Positions 5,981-63,345 of a stretch of DNA of 64,000 bases are shown piece by piece. The stretch comes from Roseiflexus sp. RS-1 (GTDB lineage: Bacteria; Chloroflexota; Chloroflexia; Chloroflexales; Roseiflexaceae): positions 3,038,001 through 3,102,000 of the forward strand of contig NC_009523.1 of assembly GCF_000016665.1 (NCBI RefSeq), written 5' to 3'. The translations under genes and the position numbers were made by a program. The notes beneath the pieces were generated by a model. The model saw only the letters and a program-made list of their open reading frames with translations. It was not told the DNA's origin and did no database searches. The first letter of the stretch is position 1. Every line of letters starts with the position of its first letter.

Positions 5981-6224
5981 GCGGGCGTCTCGCCCACATG
6001 CAGCGATGCGACTTGAAGTCAACCCGCTTATCGGAGGAGAGAGACACGGTGCGGGCGTCTCGCCCGCATGCAGCGATGCGACTTGAAGTCAACCCGCTTA
6101 TCGGAGGAGAGAGACACGGTGCGGGCGTCTCGCCCGCATGCAGCGATGCGACTTGAAGTCAACCGGCTTATCGGAGGAGAGAGACACGGTGCGCAGGCGT
6201 CTCGCTCGCATGCAGCGATGCGAC
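5981..6224. repeat. 70-bp tandem repeat, about 3.5 copies
   Basis: GCGGGCGTCT recurs at 5981, 6051 and 6121 and, with two extra bases, near 6191. Each unit contains the hairpin GCGGGCG-TCT-CGCCCGC followed by ATGCAGCGATGCGACTTG and GGAGGAGAGAGACACG. The last copy breaks off and merges into GAGCGAGAGCATCACGCCCTC, related to the dispersed element at 12017 and 57021. Open frames across it are by-products of the repeat. Confidence 0.9.
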
Positions 6225-6332: not shown

Positions 6333-7997
6333 ATGGCAGAAAAACAGAAAACGGTGGTTGCAGCGGCGCTTGGCGAATGTGTCCATGTCGCAGGCGTGAT
6401 GAACTTTCTGCGTCTGGCAGAGGAAGCTGGCTGGCGCACCGTATTTCTCGGTCCGGCGACGCCGGTCGAGCGGGTTCTCGAAGCGGCGCGACGCGAACAG
6501 GCTGACCTGGTTGGCGTATCGTACCGGTTGACGCCGGAAACCGGCGCGCATCTGCTGGGACGGTTCGCCGAGGCTGCCGATGATCTGCACGCTGCCGGAG
6601 TGCGCTTCGCCTTCGCCGGGACGCCGCCGCTGGCGGAAAAAGCGGCAACGCTTGGGTTTTTCGAGCAGGTGTTCGACGGAAGCGAACCTGCCGATCAGGT
6701 GCTGGCGTATCTCAGGGGGCAAAACCCGGCGACGGCAACCGAAGCGGATTTTCCGCAACGCACGGTTGACCGCATTCGCTGGAAGTCGCCATACCCTCTG
6801 CTGCGGCACCATTTTGGTTTGCCGACCATGCAGGCGACCATCGCAGGGATTGCAAAAATCGCCGAGTCGCGGCGCCTCGATGTCATTTCCCTCGGTACCG
6901 ATCAGGACGCCCAGGAGAATTTCTTCCACCCCGAACGCCAGGACCCGGCGCGCACCGGAGCGGGCGGCGTCCCGGTGCGCAGCGCCGACGATTACCGCGC
7001 CCTCTACGCTGCCAGTCGGCGGGGGAACTACCCCTTGATGAGGACGTATTCCGGCACCGACGACTTCGTTCGCCTGGCGGAATTGTATGTCGAGACGATC
7101 AACATCGCCTGGTGCGCCATCCCGCTCTTCTGGTTCAACCGGATGGATGGACGTGGACCGTGGGATCTGGAGGGATCGATCCGTGAGCATCAGACGATCA
7201 TGCGCTGGTACGGCGAGCGCGATATCCCGGTCGAACTCAACGAACCGCATCACTGGGGCATGCGCGACGCGCCTGATACGGTCTTCGTCGCCAGCGCCTA
7301 CCTCTCGGCGTACAACGCCCGCGCCTTTGGCGTGCGCGATTACATTGCACAGTTGATGTTCAACAGCCCACCCGGTCTTTCCGACGCCATGGACCTGGCA
7401 AAAATGCTGGCGGTGATCGAGATCACCGCGCCGCTGGCGGGACCGGATTTCCGCATCTGGAAGCAGACCCGCACCGGGTTGCTGAGTTACCCGGTCGATC
7501 CGGCAGCATCGCGCGCACACCTCTCGGCGAGTATCTACCTCCAGATGGCGCTTCGTCCGCATATCGTGCATGTTGTGGGTCATACCGAAGCACACCACGC
7601 CGCAACCGCCGATGACGTGATCGAAGCCTGCGATATGGCGCGCCGCGCTATCGAAAATGCGCTACGCGGTCAACCCGATATGACGGCGGATCCGGCGGTG
7701 CGGGCGCGGGCAGCGCAACTGGTCGAAGAGACGCATCTGCTCCTCGATGCGATTGCGCAACTTGCACCGCCGGGCGTCACCGATCCGCTGTCCGATCCCG
7801 CCACCCTGACGAAAGCCGTTGCCGTCGGGTTGCTCGATGCACCCCAGTTGCGCAACAATCCCTTTGCACCCGGTCGCGTCGTTACGCGCTTTATCAACGG
7901 CATGTGCGTGGCGGTCGATGATCAGGGTCGTCCGCTCGACGAAAAGCAACGCATCCGGCAGATTCTGGATCATCATACGACGCTTGTAACGACTTGA
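6333..7997 (+). CDS. B12-binding, glutamate-mutase-like protein
   Basis: This 554-residue protein joins an N-terminal cobalamin-binding-type Rossmann domain (about 1-130) to a long domain resembling the epsilon/large subunit of methylaspartate (glutamate) mutase, with WCAIPLFWFNRMDGRGPWDL at 260-279. In B12 proteins the cobalt-binding signature is DxHxxG; here it reads CVHVAG (16-21), so the ligand His18 and the Gly remain but the Asp is Cys. SxL (S63-L66) is kept. It probably catalyses, or evolved from, a B12-dependent carbon-skeleton rearrangement of an acidic amino acid. The ATG at 6333 follows the repeat region. Opine dehydrogenase follows after 19 bases. Confidence 0.72.
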   Translation: MAEKQKTVVAAALGECVHVAGVMNFLRLAEEAGWRTVFLGPATPVERVLEAARREQADLVGVSYRLTPETGAHLLGRFAEAADDLHAAGVRFAFAGTPPLAEKAATLGFFEQVFDGSEPADQVLAYLRGQNPATATEADFPQRTVDRIRWKSPYPLLRHHFGLPTMQATIAGIAKIAESRRLDVISLGTDQDAQENFFHPERQDPARTGAGGVPVRSADDYRALYAASRRGNYPLMRTYSGTDDFVRLAELYVETINIAWCAIPLFWFNRMDGRGPWDLEGSIREHQTIMRWYGERDIPVELNEPHHWGMRDAPDTVFVASAYLSAYNARAFGVRDYIAQLMFNSPPGLSDAMDLAKMLAVIEITAPLAGPDFRIWKQTRTGLLSYPVDPAASRAHLSASIYLQMALRPHIVHVVGHTEAHHAATADDVIEACDMARRAIENALRGQPDMTADPAVRARAAQLVEETHLLLDAIAQLAPPGVTDPLSDPATLTKAVAVGLLDAPQLRNNPFAPGRVVTRFINGMCVAVDDQGRPLDEKQRIRQILDHHTTLVTT

Positions 7998-8016: not shown

Positions 8017-9123
8017 ATGGCACCCTCAACCCGCTACACCGTCATCGGCGCCGGGAATGGCGGGAAGGCGATGGCAGCGCATCTGGCGCTGATGGGCTTC
8101 GAGACAACCCTTTACAATCGCACTCCCGCCCATATCGAAGCTATCCGGCAGCGCCGCGGCATTGAGCTGGAGTCCGGTGAAACCGGGCCGCGCGGTTTTG
8201 GCCAGCTTGCGCTGGTAACATCGGATATGAAAGAGGCGCTTGATCATTGCGATGTGGCAATGGTGGTCGTTCCTTCGTCGGCGCACGCCGAAGTGGCGCG
8301 ATCTATGGCGCCGCATCTGCGCGATGGGCAGATTATTATTCTGCATCCCGGTCGCACCTGCGGCGCTATCGAGGTTGCTAAAGTGCTGCGTGATGAACGT
8401 TGCCGGGCGGATGTGACCGTTGCCGAAGCGGAGACATTCATCTACGCCAGCCGGTCGGATGGTCCGGCGCAGGCGCGTATTTTCCGCATCAAGGAAGCGG
8501 TGCCGCTGGCGGCGCTCCCTGCGTATCGCACCAGCGATGTGCTTGGTGTGATCCACGACGCATTCCCGCAGTATATCGACGGCGGCAATGTATTGCGCAC
8601 CGGTTTGAACAACATGGGCGCTATTTTTCACCCGGCACTAACGTTGTTGAACGCCGGACGCATCGAGTCGACCCGTGGCGATTTTCAATTCTATATCGAT
8701 GGCGTTACACCTTCGGTAGCCCGCGTGCTCGAAGTGATCGACCGGGAGCGGGTGACGGTTGCGGCTGCGCTCGGTATTCGCGCCCGCACGGCGCAGGAGT
8801 GGCTGGCGCTGGCGTACAATGCAACTGGCGACTCACTCTATGAAGCCATTCAGAACCAACCGGGCTACTACGGCATCAAAGCCCCGCCGACGCTCAACCA
8901 TCGCTACATTTTCGAGGATGTGCCGATGAGCCTGGTGCCGATTGCAGCGCTCGGTCAACGCTACGGCGTTGCCGTCGCTGGCATCGACAGCATTATTCGT
9001 CTGGCATGTATCATTCACCGTACCGACTACTGGCGTCGTGGACGCACGCTGGATCGACTGGGCATCGCCAATTTGAGCGTGAGTGAATTGACCCGCTACG
9101 TCGAGGAGGGAACACTGGAGTAG
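8017..9123 (+). CDS. Opine (octopine/nopaline-type) dehydrogenase
   Basis: The 368-residue protein has a dinucleotide-binding GAGNGG at residues 11-16, HPGRT in the middle, and the C-terminal octopine dehydrogenase region with GLNNMGAIFHPALTL and NHRYIFEDVP. The family reductively joins an amino acid to an alpha-keto acid with NAD(P)H, giving an N-carboxyalkyl amino acid (opine). AGGAG at 8004-8008 sits eight bases before the chosen ATG; another ATG four bases earlier is out of frame. It lies between the mutase-like gene and asparagine synthetase in one direction with tight spacing, so its substrate may be the mutase product. Confidence 0.88.
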   Translation: MAPSTRYTVIGAGNGGKAMAAHLALMGFETTLYNRTPAHIEAIRQRRGIELESGETGPRGFGQLALVTSDMKEALDHCDVAMVVVPSSAHAEVARSMAPHLRDGQIIILHPGRTCGAIEVAKVLRDERCRADVTVAEAETFIYASRSDGPAQARIFRIKEAVPLAALPAYRTSDVLGVIHDAFPQYIDGGNVLRTGLNNMGAIFHPALTLLNAGRIESTRGDFQFYIDGVTPSVARVLEVIDRERVTVAAALGIRARTAQEWLALAYNATGDSLYEAIQNQPGYYGIKAPPTLNHRYIFEDVPMSLVPIAALGQRYGVAVAGIDSIIRLACIIHRTDYWRRGRTLDRLGIANLSVSELTRYVEEGTLE

Positions 9124-9150: not shown

Positions 9151-10647
9151 ATGTGCGGTATTGCAGGCGCGTATCGAACCACAGACACTGTGCGCATCGA
9201 GCAGATGCTTGACCGGCTAACCCACCGAGGACCTGATGGACAGGGCGTGGTAGCCACCGATACAGGCGTTCTGGGGCATACACGCCTGGCAATCATCGAT
9301 CTGGAAGGCGGTCGGCAACCGATGGAGCACGATGGCGCGCTGATCTGTTTCAACGGCGAGATCTACAACTACCGCATCTTGCGTGATCGCTATCTCCGTG
9401 ATCAGACACTCGAAACCGATAGCGACACCGAGGTGCTGTTGCGCCTGTACCGCACACTCGGTCCCGGCTTTGTCAACCTGCTCGAAGGGATGTTTGCGTT
9501 TGCCATTCTCGATGGCGACGATCTCTTTCTCGCGCGCGACCCGATCGGCATCAAGCCGCTTTATCTGGCACAGCGCGACCACACGTTGCTGTTTGCTTCG
9601 GAAATCAAAGCGCTCGCGCTGCAAGCCGATCAGGTGACGACGTTTCCGCCAGGGACATGGTATCACTCGCGCTTCGGCAGCCATGCCTATTACGAGTTTG
9701 CTCAGGGTTGGCCCCGAAACGGCGTCTTCGAGACTGTCGAACAGGCGAAGAACGCTATTCGCGCGGTACTGCGCTCAGCCGTTCATAAGCGTTTGCTGGC
9801 GGATGTTCCGGTGGGGGTCAGTCTCAGCGGCGGACTCGATAGCAGCATTATCGCGCTCCTGGCATGCGCAGAACTCGATCATATCGAAACGTTCGCCGTT
9901 GGGATGGAGGGCAGCGAGGATCTGGAAGCGGCGCGTCGGATGGCGCAGTATCTGGGAACACGTCATTACGAGTATGTGTATACACGCGCCGAAATGGAAG
10001 CTGTGCTGCCCGACGTGATCTACTATCTCGAATCGGCCGATCCGGCGCTGGTGCGTAGCGCTGTACCGAACTACTTCCTGGCGCGACTGGCTTCCGAGCG
10101 GGTGAAAGTGATTCTCACCGGCGAGGGCGCCGATGAACTGTACGCCGGGTACGACTACATGCGTGCGCTGACAACGCCGGAAGATCTTCATCGTGAGCTT
10201 GAAATAGCGATCCGCGAACTGCATCGCACCAATCTTCAACGCGCTGATCGCATGTTCATGGCGTTCGGCGTCGAAGGGCGCGTGCCGTTCCTGGACGTGG
10301 AGTCGATTGCGCTGGCGCTCAGTCTGCCGCCGGAATGGAAACTGGCAGCGCCCGGCGAACCGACGAAAATGCTGCTCCGCGAGGCGTTCGCCAGCGATCT
10401 GCCCGAGTCGATTGTGCAGCGCCCCAAGCAGAAGTTCTCTGCCGGCGCCGGCTCAATGTACGAACTTGCCAGAGTTGCTGAAGAACGGTTTGATGACCAG
10501 ACGTTTGCGCGGGAGCGCCAGCGCCTGATGCAGCGCTGGAACTATCGCCTTCCAAACAAAGAAGCGCTCTACTATCTCGATACCCTGCGCGCCGTGCTTC
10601 CAGAGCGCCTGATCATGCCGGAGATGGGGATGAGTCGGAGCCTCTGA
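9151..10647 (+). CDS. Asparagine synthetase (glutamine-hydrolysing), AsnB type
   Basis: This 498-residue protein begins MCGIAG, placing the nucleophile Cys at position 2 of a class II glutaminase domain (about 2-190, with HRGPDG and FNGEIYN). The synthetase half carries the ATP-pyrophosphatase loop SLSGGLDSS (224-232) and LTGEGADELYAGY. It would make asparagine, or an amide of a related acidic substrate, using glutamine and ATP. It is shorter than E. coli AsnB (about 554 residues). AAAGGAGG precedes the ATG. Its place after a mutase-like protein and opine dehydrogenase makes a role in a modified amino-acid pathway possible. A decayed copy of its middle lies at 11317. Confidence 0.93.
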   Translation: MCGIAGAYRTTDTVRIEQMLDRLTHRGPDGQGVVATDTGVLGHTRLAIIDLEGGRQPMEHDGALICFNGEIYNYRILRDRYLRDQTLETDSDTEVLLRLYRTLGPGFVNLLEGMFAFAILDGDDLFLARDPIGIKPLYLAQRDHTLLFASEIKALALQADQVTTFPPGTWYHSRFGSHAYYEFAQGWPRNGVFETVEQAKNAIRAVLRSAVHKRLLADVPVGVSLSGGLDSSIIALLACAELDHIETFAVGMEGSEDLEAARRMAQYLGTRHYEYVYTRAEMEAVLPDVIYYLESADPALVRSAVPNYFLARLASERVKVILTGEGADELYAGYDYMRALTTPEDLHRELEIAIRELHRTNLQRADRMFMAFGVEGRVPFLDVESIALALSLPPEWKLAAPGEPTKMLLREAFASDLPESIVQRPKQKFSAGAGSMYELARVAEERFDDQTFARERQRLMQRWNYRLPNKEALYYLDTLRAVLPERLIMPEMGMSRSL

Positions 10648-15178: not shown

Positions 15179-16081
15179 TCAGCGCGCCTGGAAGGTGATC
15201 ACATACAGGTAGGTATAATTACCAGTGTCAACGGTATACCCTGTGAATTTGAGCTTGCCGTCCTCTCGGTAGGCCTCGAAGGCTGTGGAGCCAGCGCCTA
15301 GGCTGAAATAGCCTGGCTCATTCACTACCCCGTCCTGATCGTAGTCAATGTCAATCAGCGCATACTGGAAGGGCGAATAGATTGGCTGAGTTCCCTGCGC
15401 GGTAATCATTACTCCCTGGAACTGCTGCACCCCGGGAAAGAAGGGACACGGGAAGAGTGTGTAAGCGGGCTGGTTCACCAGCGAGCAATCGGCGTTGACC
15501 ACCAAGGTCATCGTGCCTTGCTGCAATTCGATAGTCCCACCACCTGAAGTGCGCACCTTGATGGTTTCCCCCGTCCCGGAGGTCAGTGGGCGGCACTGGT
15601 TCGCATTGATGTCACAGGTGTAGCCACCGGTCCGAATCAGCGTGAAACTGCTTCCTGCTGCTTCACCCAACGGTCCCCCTGCTTCCCCGCTGCCGACCCC
15701 GTTACCCGGTTCGCTGCCTGGCACGTCGCCAGGAAGACCCGGCGTGCCCACAGGCTGGACAGCGGGAGTTTTGAGTTGCACCGGTTGCAGGGCTTGATCG
15801 GGGAGACCCGGCGTGCCCGCAGGCTGGACAGCGGGAGTTTTGAGTTGCACCGGTTGCGGGGCTTGATCGGGGAGACCCGGCGTGCCCGCAGGCTGGACAG
15901 CGGGAGTTTTGAGTTGCACCGATTGCGGGGCTTGATTATTGCGTCTAAGCATAATGGTTCCCACCACACACATCGCCAGGGCAACCAGGGCTAAACTGAG
16001 CAGCAGCAGCCCGGCACATCCTCCGCCCACCAGCCATGGAAGCTGGCTCCCCGATGATCTAGGTGGTCCTACGTTCGCCAT
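15179..16081 (-). CDS. Membrane-anchored protein with a proline-rich repeat stalk
   Basis: The 300-residue protein has a Gly-Ser-Pro N-terminus, one transmembrane helix (about 17-44), and then three almost identical 23-residue repeats (about 50-118) containing VQLKTPAVQPAGTPGLP. The DNA period is exactly 69 bp. The C-terminal ~150 residues form an unrecognised domain with CDINANQC and CSLVNQPAYTLFPCPF, perhaps disulphide-bonded outside the cell, and a DIDYDQDG segment that could bind calcium. A strong AGGAGG precedes the ATG. No family was recognised. Confidence 0.75.
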   Translation of the reverse strand: MANVGPPRSSGSQLPWLVGGGCAGLLLLSLALVALAMCVVGTIMLRRNNQAPQSVQLKTPAVQPAGTPGLPDQAPQPVQLKTPAVQPAGTPGLPDQALQPVQLKTPAVQPVGTPGLPGDVPGSEPGNGVGSGEAGGPLGEAAGSSFTLIRTGGYTCDINANQCRPLTSGTGETIKVRTSGGGTIELQQGTMTLVVNADCSLVNQPAYTLFPCPFFPGVQQFQGVMITAQGTQPIYSPFQYALIDIDYDQDGVVNEPGYFSLGAGSTAFEAYREDGKLKFTGYTVDTGNYTYLYVITFQAR

Positions 16082-30574: not shown

Positions 30575-30797
30575 TCAAACACTCAACGCTCAACGCTCAT
30601 CCACCAACCGTTCAACGTTCAACGCTCAACGCTCAACGCTCAACGCTCATCCACCAACCGTTCAACGTTCAACGCTCAACGTTCAACGTTCAACCTTCAA
30701 CGTTCAACCTTCAACGTTCAACCTTCAACGCTCAACGTTCAACGCTCAACGTTCAACGTTCAACCTTCAACGTTCAACCTTCAACGCTCAACGCTCA
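30575..30797. repeat. Heptanucleotide minisatellite, AACGTTC type
   Basis: About thirty copies of a 7-bp unit written as CTCAACG, TTCAACG or TTCAACC. A longer block with CTCATCCACCAACCGTTCAACG occurs twice near 30597 and 30648. The array runs into the 3' end of the GAF/PAS gene, where its last units encode LSVER and the stop. The same unit, in the opposite orientation, fills 62974-63133. Confidence 0.95.
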
Positions 30798-31779
30798 ACT
30801 CCCGCCAGAACTCCAGCACCGCGCCATCACCGGTCTGAGTGGACATGCGTTCGACCTCGTAGGTATGCACTCGTCCGCCGGCATCGGGCAACGCCACCTC
30901 GGCGCGCCCCTCGTCATCCTGGCTGATACGCTGCATGCCGTGCAGGCAGAGTCGCTGACGCAGTTCGGCATACGACCGGCCGACGAGTTCGCGCGGATGT
31001 ACGCCGACGATGCGATCTGAGAAGAAACGGTTGACAGCGAGCACCATATCATCAGCGTCGAGCAGCAGCACGCCCTCTGGCAGGTGATCGAACACAACGC
31101 GCAGCAGATCGCGACTGTTCTGCACCTGACGGGCGCGTTCGGCAAGCAGGCTTTCGAGCAGGCGCGCATCGCGCCGCAGCGCTTCCGCCTGACGCATCCC
31201 GGCGCAGATTGCGCCCAGCGTCCCGGCATAGATCGTCAGGTTTGCCCACATATCCGCAGAAAGCGCCGGTTCCTCCAGCGCCGCGCGATACATGACCGCC
31301 ACTCCTACATCCCGCCCCATGCGCGAGAGCGGCAGCGCAATGCACGCCGGGTAGGCGCCGCTTTCGCCAGGCGCGCTGATCATCGCCTCGGCATCGAGCG
31401 CCCGTCGAGCGATTTCGGCGATATGCTCGAGCGCTGACGGATCGGGTAACACAGCGTCCGATGGCACGACTGGAGTGAGCAGTCCGCTCTCGTCGAGCAG
31501 GAAGAGCGCACCGCCATCCATGCCGAAAACCTCGACGCTCTGCTGATGCACAAGCGTCGCCAGTTCTTCGTAGGAATGCTGCACCGTCAGAAACTGCCCG
31601 ATGGCTTGCAATGCGCCAATCGCGCCGGCGGGCGCCGGACCCAGCGAATCCTGCAAGGCGACTGAAAGACGCGAGAGCGTGACGGCGCTGCCCTGGAGTT
31701 GTTCATTGGCCTGGTGCAGACGCGAGACGAGTTCGAGCGCATCGGCGCTGGAAAGTTTGCTCAGGTCGGCGAGGTCCAT
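30781..31779 (-). CDS. GAF-PAS sensory protein
   Basis: A 332-residue soluble protein: a helical start (MDLADLSKLSSADALELV), a GAF domain (about 60-200) and a PAS domain (about 235-330, from LLRVVFDHLPEGVLLLDADD). There is no output domain, so it probably works as a partner or ligand-sensing adaptor. GGAGG precedes the ATG at 31779. The last few codons and the stop lie inside the heptanucleotide repeat, so the C-terminus has been rewritten by the minisatellite. Confidence 0.85.
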   Translation of the reverse strand: MDLADLSKLSSADALELVSRLHQANEQLQGSAVTLSRLSVALQDSLGPAPAGAIGALQAIGQFLTVQHSYEELATLVHQQSVEVFGMDGGALFLLDESGLLTPVVPSDAVLPDPSALEHIAEIARRALDAEAMISAPGESGAYPACIALPLSRMGRDVGVAVMYRAALEEPALSADMWANLTIYAGTLGAICAGMRQAEALRRDARLLESLLAERARQVQNSRDLLRVVFDHLPEGVLLLDADDMVLAVNRFFSDRIVGVHPRELVGRSYAELRQRLCLHGMQRISQDDEGRAEVALPDAGGRVHTYEVERMSTQTGDGAVLEFWRELSVER

Positions 31780-32445: not shown

Positions 32446-32745
32446 CGCCCGCGCCGGCGGGCGCCCGGTCGGAGGCCCGCCAGGGGCGATGTCAATCGCT
32501 GGTGCGTGAGGCGGTGAAGGAGGACTCGCCCGCGCCGGCGGGCGCCCGGTCGGAGGCCCGCCAGGGGCGATGTCAATCGCTGGTGCGTGAGGCGGTGAAG
32601 GAGGACTCGCCCGCGCCGGCGGGCGCCCGGTCGGAGGCCCGCCAGGGGCGATGTCAATCGCTGGTGCGTGAGGCGGTGAAGGAGGACTCGCCCGCGCCGG
32701 CGGGCGCCCGGTCGGAGGCCCGCCAGGGGCGATGTCAATCGCTCC
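32446..32745. repeat. 81-bp tandem repeat, four copies
   Basis: GGAGGCCCGCC occurs at 32471, 32552, 32633 and 32714, an exact 81-bp period. Each unit contains GCGGGCGCCCGGTCGGAGGC, a hairpin, then GGCGATGTCAATCGCTGG, similar to GGCGATTGAAATCGC of the neighbouring array. Since 81 is 27 codons, open frames run through on both strands. Copies are nearly identical, which points to recent expansion. Confidence 0.95.
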
Positions 32746-62973: not shown

Positions 62974-63133
62974 CTAACGTTGAAGGTTGAACGTTGAAGG
63001 TTGAACGTTGAAGGTTGAACGTTGAAGGTTGAACGTTGAACGTTGAACGTTGTAATGTTGAAGGTTGAACGTTGAAGGTTGAACGTTGAACGTTGAAGGT
63101 TGAACGTTGAAGGTTGAACGTTGAACGTTGAAC
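62974..63133. repeat. Heptanucleotide minisatellite upstream of the GT-C gene
   Basis: About twenty units of GAACGTT or GAAGGTT, the complement of the array at 30575. In one frame they spell repeating QRSTFNV, giving misleading open frames. The array ends about 18 bases before the GT-C start codon and so occupies the 5' leader of that gene. Confidence 0.95.
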
Positions 63134-63164
63134 GGGCGACAACCACCTTCCACCTTCAACCTTT

Positions 63165-63340
63165 CCCACCTCTCGCCTCATCCCCTCTCGCCTCTCGCCT
63201 CATCCCCTCTCGCCTCTCGCCCCTCGCCTCATCCCCTCTCGCCTCTCGCCTCTCGCCTCTCGCCTCATCCCCTCTCGCCTCTCACCTCTCGCCTCTTGCC
63301 TCCCGCCTCACCCCTTGCGCCCCTTGCCTCGCGCCCCGCG
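63165..63340. repeat. CTCTCGC minisatellite
   Basis: Seven-base units CCTCTCG with interspersed CCTCATCC, followed by less regular CCTTGCG units. It sits directly downstream of the GGDEF gene and upstream of the GT-C leader. It shares the CTCTCGC unit with the block at 32870. Confidence 0.9.
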
Positions 63341-63345
63341 CCTCA

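Follow-up and report, generated by a model that had tools for sequence, protein, structure and literature searches.

A 64,000-nucleotide stretch of the Roseiflexus sp. RS-1 genome (NC_009523.1, positions 3,038,001 to 3,102,000; hereafter, the window) encodes a 554-residue protein that is probably a vitamin B12-dependent mutase related to glutamate mutase. Its B12-binding loop departs from the DxHxxG signature in having Cys at the position of the Asp. From sequence comparison and a structural model, we consider it likely that the protein is an adenosylcobalamin (AdoCbl)-dependent enzyme of the glutamate mutase branch, in which an S-type domain is fused ahead of an E-type barrel, and that it carries a natural His-Cys pair and acts on a substrate other than glutamate. 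The gene and the parts of it that bear on the loop are the following.

6333..7997, + strand: probable fused mutase, S-type B12 domain plus E-type TIM barrel, 554 residues (translation, domain search, structure match)
6351..6719, + strand: B12-binding Rossmann domain, residues 7–129 (PF02310; hhalign)
6378..6395, + strand: CVHVAG loop, with Cys16 at the Asp position, His18 as the presumed cobalt ligand, and Gly21 (sequence, translation, alignments)

In the translated open reading frame, the codons TGT GTC CAT GTC GCA GGC at 6378–6395 specify the residues CVHVAG, running from Cys16 to Gly21. The N-terminal domain matches the Pfam B12-binding family PF02310 above its cut-off (E 4.7e-10), and a profile of 44 family sequences aligns to three Chloroflexota GlmS sequences in hhalign with a probability of 97.1 and an E-value of 5.4e-11. 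The loop is free of gaps in this alignment and Cys16 faces the Asp of GPDIH, GADAH and GYDIH; Cys16 therefore occupies the Asp position. Of the DxHxxG residues that mark the B12-binding Rossmann domain of base-off/His-on AdoCbl mutases, the His and the Gly are present and the Asp is replaced by Cys. The original prediction, that the His of the loop is kept and its Asp changed to Cys, is thus borne out by the sequence, its translation and the GlmS alignment. It had also named, as a possible refutation, a shifted loop with a proper Asp nearby. This was rejected, as the alignment is gap-free and residue 15, which immediately precedes the Asp column, varies between Glu, Lys and Asp among the subfamilies.

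The other PF02310 matches of the same genome (G000) served as a control. Nine matches were found, eight of them above the cut-off. The Asp position is occupied by Asp in three proteins (L211, L213 and L214), by Glu in two (L215 and L217) and by Cys in the window protein (L216). L212 reads NYHAGG, and the matches of L218 and L219 begin at profile positions 11 and 22 and show no motif.

The Cys is constant in all relatives examined. Genome searches were confined to Chloroflexota; a scan of genome contigs gave 233 relatives, of which 80 were kept, and the titles of all 80 name lineages that we take to belong to this phylum. All 85 alignment rows (81 distinct proteins; a few genomes occur twice) have Cys at position 16, as does every one of 112 distinct loop-bearing stretches pooled from 144 collected proteins, where the loop reads GECVHVAG (100), GKCVHNLG (8), GDCVHSLG (2), GECVHIAG (1) or GECAHVAG (1). 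Eight of the 144 proteins fell outside the search pattern: L004, L109 and L033 have the Cys, and L134, L205, L161, L170 and L126 are truncated past the motif. Of 400 Chloroflexota genomes sampled, 28 contain the mutase family, and matches, some of them to the GlmL part only, were returned for 65 of 150 genomes from the class of G211.

Three subfamilies can be distinguished, A (which includes the window protein), B and C; compared through one member each, their B12 domains share 48.8% (A–B), 32.6% (A–C) and 26.4% (B–C) identity. An alignment of 44 sequences (33, 4 and 7 per subfamily, with one gapped row allowed per column) shows Cys16, His18, Gly21, Ser63 and Gly96 to be non-varying across all three. 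Val17 is invariant in these 44 sequences as well, yet it is Ala in L175, which lies outside the set. In the subfamily that is fused to GlmL, the loops read GKCVHNLG or GDCVHSLG. With Cys in every relative examined, the change from Asp looks like a working functional variant rather than local loss or decay. The original prediction had named as its own refutation that all members carry Cys and bind B12 normally, and the first half of that statement holds for every member examined. A sequencing error or a decaying gene was considered and rejected, the open reading frame being intact and a Roseiflexus relative being 97% identical over its length. A tblastn search of plasmids with two family members gave zero matches, and the literature, searched with partial coverage, contained no paper whose title or abstract start describes the present family.

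The remainder of the protein is predicted to form a barrel of the type found in glutamate mutase E, with the following features.

6741..7964, + strand: glutamate mutase E-like TIM barrel, residues 137–544 (structure match to 1cb7_B; hhalign probability 96.8)
7587..7589, + strand: Glu419, which pairs with Glu330 of glutamate mutase E (profile alignment; role from PMC3958899, in part)

The AlphaFold2 model, calculated from a 33-sequence alignment, has a mean predicted local distance difference test (pLDDT) score of 85.9 and a predicted template modelling (pTM) score of 0.85. The solved structure that it matches best is that of glutamate mutase E (1cb7_B; Z 33.4 in VIA, root-mean-square deviation 3.2, 375 aligned residues and 15% identity, over model residues 137–544), which places a TIM barrel of the mutase superfamily, as expected of base-off/His-on AdoCbl mutases, behind the B12 domain. 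Lower scores were returned for lysine 5,6-aminomutase (Z 29.9), ornithine 4,5-aminomutase (Z 27.5) and methylmalonyl-CoA mutase (Z 22.0), and Foldseek supports the fold as well, with E 2.6e-15. The hhalign comparison of the barrel with a GlmE profile extends over 394 columns (E 2.8e-10); the six rows of that profile represent five distinct genes, one of them occurring in both L130 and L179. In subfamily B, the mutases of G476 (31.6 bits), G449 (31.3) and G420 (29.4) score above the PF06368 cut-off of 26.6 bits.

Active-site residues were paired through the profile alignment, with the numbering of the GlmE chain taken from the solved structure. According to the available portion of PMC10947579, the residues that hold the glycyl part in glutamate mutase are R66, R149 and E171, and those for the acrylate part are R100 and Y177. 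The arginine claw of R66, R100 and R149 does not appear intact in the window protein. R100 pairs with Gln194, which is non-varying in the 44 sequences, and R66 and R149 pair with His160 and Tyr239, both assignments being uncertain because the non-varying Arg158 and Arg237 lie two places away. Y177 pairs with Trp267 and E171 with Cys261. Glu330, for which a contact to the coenzyme ribose has been suggested (PMC3958899, in part), pairs with Glu419, again non-varying in the 44 sequences. With this Glu kept and the claw altered, the active site appears conserved on its coenzyme side and remodelled on its substrate side.

These pairings bear on whether the protein could be a plain glutamate mutase that tolerates the change from Asp to Cys and acts on glutamate or 3-methylaspartate. 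The nearest fold is that of glutamate mutase E, and the sister subfamilies are linked to GlmL; yet R100 aligns with an invariant Gln, E171 with Cys and Y177 with Trp, the partner gene encodes an opine-type dehydrogenase, and two of the genomes (G476 and G449) carry a separate canonical GlmE besides the Cys-bearing mutase. No methylaspartase was noticed in the neighbourhoods listed, for which no profile search for methylaspartase was made. Taken together, we regard a plain glutamate mutase as very improbable.

An aminomutase dependent on pyridoxal phosphate (PLP) was also considered. The PLP-binding Lys629 of ornithine 4,5-aminomutase sits in the B12 domain. That this residue binds PLP is stated in the accessible part of PMC3958899. 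In the window family, K357, which lies in the barrel, is the sole Lys among the 82 non-varying columns of the 44 sequences, so that a PLP Lys in the B12 domain is absent, and identity with ornithine 4,5-aminomutase or lysine 5,6-aminomutase was rejected on this ground.

Linkage to GlmL/MutL is seen in both sister subfamilies. The gene order in all five subfamily B loci, as judged from sequence signatures, is GlmL, dehydrogenase, dehydrogenase, mutase, and an oligopeptide-type binding protein and permease then follow in three of the five, identified in the same way. The gene calls at L199 and L200 were checked with Pfam and NCBIfam, and the L200 GlmL lies above the NCBIfam equivalog cut-off (604 versus 475 bits). 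Eleven subfamily C loci (L159–L169) encode the mutase and a GlmL/MutL region within one protein of 1210–1391 residues; the fused region is above the Pfam cut-off in L127, the only one scanned with Pfam. The L159–L169 proteins are natural examples of a single-chain mutase that carries its own accessory domain.

It is on the basis of these operons and fusions, and of the kept His, Ser, Gly and ribose Glu, that we take cobalamin to be probably bound and used for a radical rearrangement. The window genome also encodes a corrinoid adenosyltransferase (PF01923), which speaks for the same reading. The original prediction had proposed that cobalamin may be held differently or not at all. The second option is disfavoured by the constancy of Cys, His, Gly21, Ser63 and Glu419 in the 44 sequences and by the GlmL links of two subfamilies; that the Cys-bearing loop holds cobalamin differently is plausible.

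Several results weigh against a B12-dependent enzyme of the glutamate mutase branch. In global mode, hhalign of the barrel against a single GlmE sequence gave a probability of only 0.5. The barrel of the window protein has no Pfam match at E-values up to 1, PF06368 included, and no PF06368 match was found in the window genome. PDB sequence searches returned B12 domains and chance matches only and did not retrieve GlmE; antibody chains among the matches were taken as chance matches to the barrel. The subfamily B mutases of G466 (21.7 bits) and G461 (20.2) fall below the PF06368 cut-off, and the fused GlmL region of L208 is below the NCBIfam cut-offs. In the window genome no GlmL is found beside the mutase, the nearest candidate being a divergent MutL-like gene 29 kb away that scores 190 bits. 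Of the 28 mutase genomes 26 have MutL-like genes, but so have 174 of the 372 other Chloroflexota genomes, so that their co-occurrence with the mutase is confounded by descent and weak; the comparison takes both searches as drawing the same 400 genomes, as read from the genome labels. The corrinoid adenosyltransferase PF01923 was found in G000, G211, G430 and G499 and was not found in the other six of ten mutase genomes, including all five of subfamily B, other adenosyltransferase families not having been searched. Finally, methionine synthase loses much of its activity when the Asp is replaced (PMC6013808, in part). The divergent MutL-like protein of the window genome is 689 residues long and lies outside the window (G000:C1:3014028-3015431).

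The loss of a signature residue, the missing GlmL neighbour and the six genomes in which PF01923 was not found could also be read to mean that the B12 domain binds no cobalamin, having a structural or other role, and that the barrel works independently of B12. Set against this are the non-varying His18, Gly21, Ser63, Gly96 and coenzyme-ribose Glu, together with the GlmL operon and fusion of the sister subfamilies, and we consider it the least likely of the explanations discussed here.

For the favoured AdoCbl-dependent mutase, cobalamin would bind base-off with His18 on the cobalt, and Cys16, as thiol or thiolate, would take the second-shell place of the Asp behind His18, where it may provide a weaker or redox-sensitive tuning of the Co–N bond. 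Because thiols accept hydrogen bonds less well than carboxylates do, the His-Cys pair might respond to changes in pH or redox state. Substrate binding would trigger homolysis of the Co–C bond and a 1,2-rearrangement by a radical mechanism. The substrate is presumably an amino acid or a compound of the opine type, though not glutamate, and either it or the product of the mutase may be oxidised or reduced by the PF02317 partner described below.

A bolder explanation makes the Cys16 thiolate the lower ligand of the cobalt, either alone or in exchange with His18. We know of no Rossmann-type mutase in which cobalt has Cys in this position. The Cys is as constant as the His in the family, and precedents exist outside the Rossmann fold, with Cys80 of BtuM on the cobalt (PMC6072759, in part) and HgcA thought to use Cys (PMC13331322, in part). 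However, His18 is equally constant and is placed at the His of GlmS, Cys16 aligns with the second-shell position, and in BtuM, as far as the available text of PMC6072759 goes, Cys ligation accompanies decyanation and not mutase chemistry. Ligation by Cys16 therefore appears unlikely. A broader proposal can be offered tentatively, as a speculation that we rather doubt: the family would be a new group of AdoCbl mutases, partly served by GlmL, with cobalt chemistry set by the His-Cys pair (the Cys possibly being a cobalt ligand or redox switch), which, together with a dehydrogenase of the opine type, converts an N-substituted amino acid and thereby forms a new B12 route.

Two genes follow the mutase in the window.

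8017..9123, + strand: opine-dehydrogenase-like partner, PF02317, 368 residues (Pfam; nearest solved structure by sequence 1bg6; neighbourhood)
9151..10647, + strand: asparagine synthase B, glutamine-hydrolysing, the gene after the partner (family scan, neighbourhood)

The partner matches the N-(1-D-carboxylethyl)-L-norvaline dehydrogenase 1bg6 over residues 3–359 of 368 (E 5e-77). Among the 80 loci kept from the 233 relatives, a PF02317 dehydrogenase flanks the mutase in all 79 that could be tested: in 76 it comes immediately after the mutase and in one it follows at a distance of 2.4 kb, while two loci have it immediately upstream; the remaining locus ends too soon. Asparagine synthase B is encoded within 4 kb downstream of the mutase in 23 of the 80. 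PF02317 genes around the subfamily C mutases at L204 and L208 were checked by family scan; L204 is further accompanied by an amino-acid permease and an RpiR regulator, and L208 by a gamma-glutamyltransferase and an ornithine-racemase-like gene that is below its cut-off. More transporters and RpiR genes around subfamily C loci were named by eye. A 70-bp tandem unit (3.5 copies, 97% match, window 5981–6224) lies in the gap that immediately precedes the mutase gene.

Elsewhere in the window, 7-bp arrays of TCAACGT, AACGTTG and CCTCTCG with approximately 23–31 copies are found at 30583–30799, 62976–63134 and 63169–63344, and a GC-rich 81-bp unit is repeated 3.7 times with 100% match at 32446–32743. 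An open reading frame at 15179–16081 encodes a hydrophobic segment followed by repeats of a 23-residue unit, to which a 69-bp tandem repeat at 15735–15936 corresponds.

Base-off B12 enzymes are marked by the His-Asp pair. How much its hydrogen-bond network contributes to catalysis is debated (PMC6013808, in part), and a natural family in which Cys stands where Asp is usual, studied alongside the Asp-bearing glutamate mutases of related genomes as controls, would offer a direct test of that network. The analysis also marks an uncharacterised mutase-dehydrogenase pair, in which the subfamily A barrel is reached by no Pfam model. In comparison to glutamate (methylaspartate) mutase, GlmES/MutES, the window protein has in common the B12 Rossmann domain with its His loop, the E-type barrel and the ribose-binding Glu, and its sister subfamilies share the GlmL linkage. 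It differs in having Cys for Asp, Gln at R100 and an opine-dehydrogenase-like neighbour, and its S and E parts, which are separate subunits in GlmES/MutES, are encoded in that order by a single open reading frame. A dehydrogenase also follows the mutase in the pathways of ornithine 4,5- and lysine 5,6-aminomutase, and sister locus L208 carries the ornithine-racemase-like gene that is below its cut-off. D-ornithine 4,5-aminomutase and lysine 5,6-aminomutase possess a related barrel, but the window family differs from both in that its B12 domain offers no invariant Lys to hold PLP.
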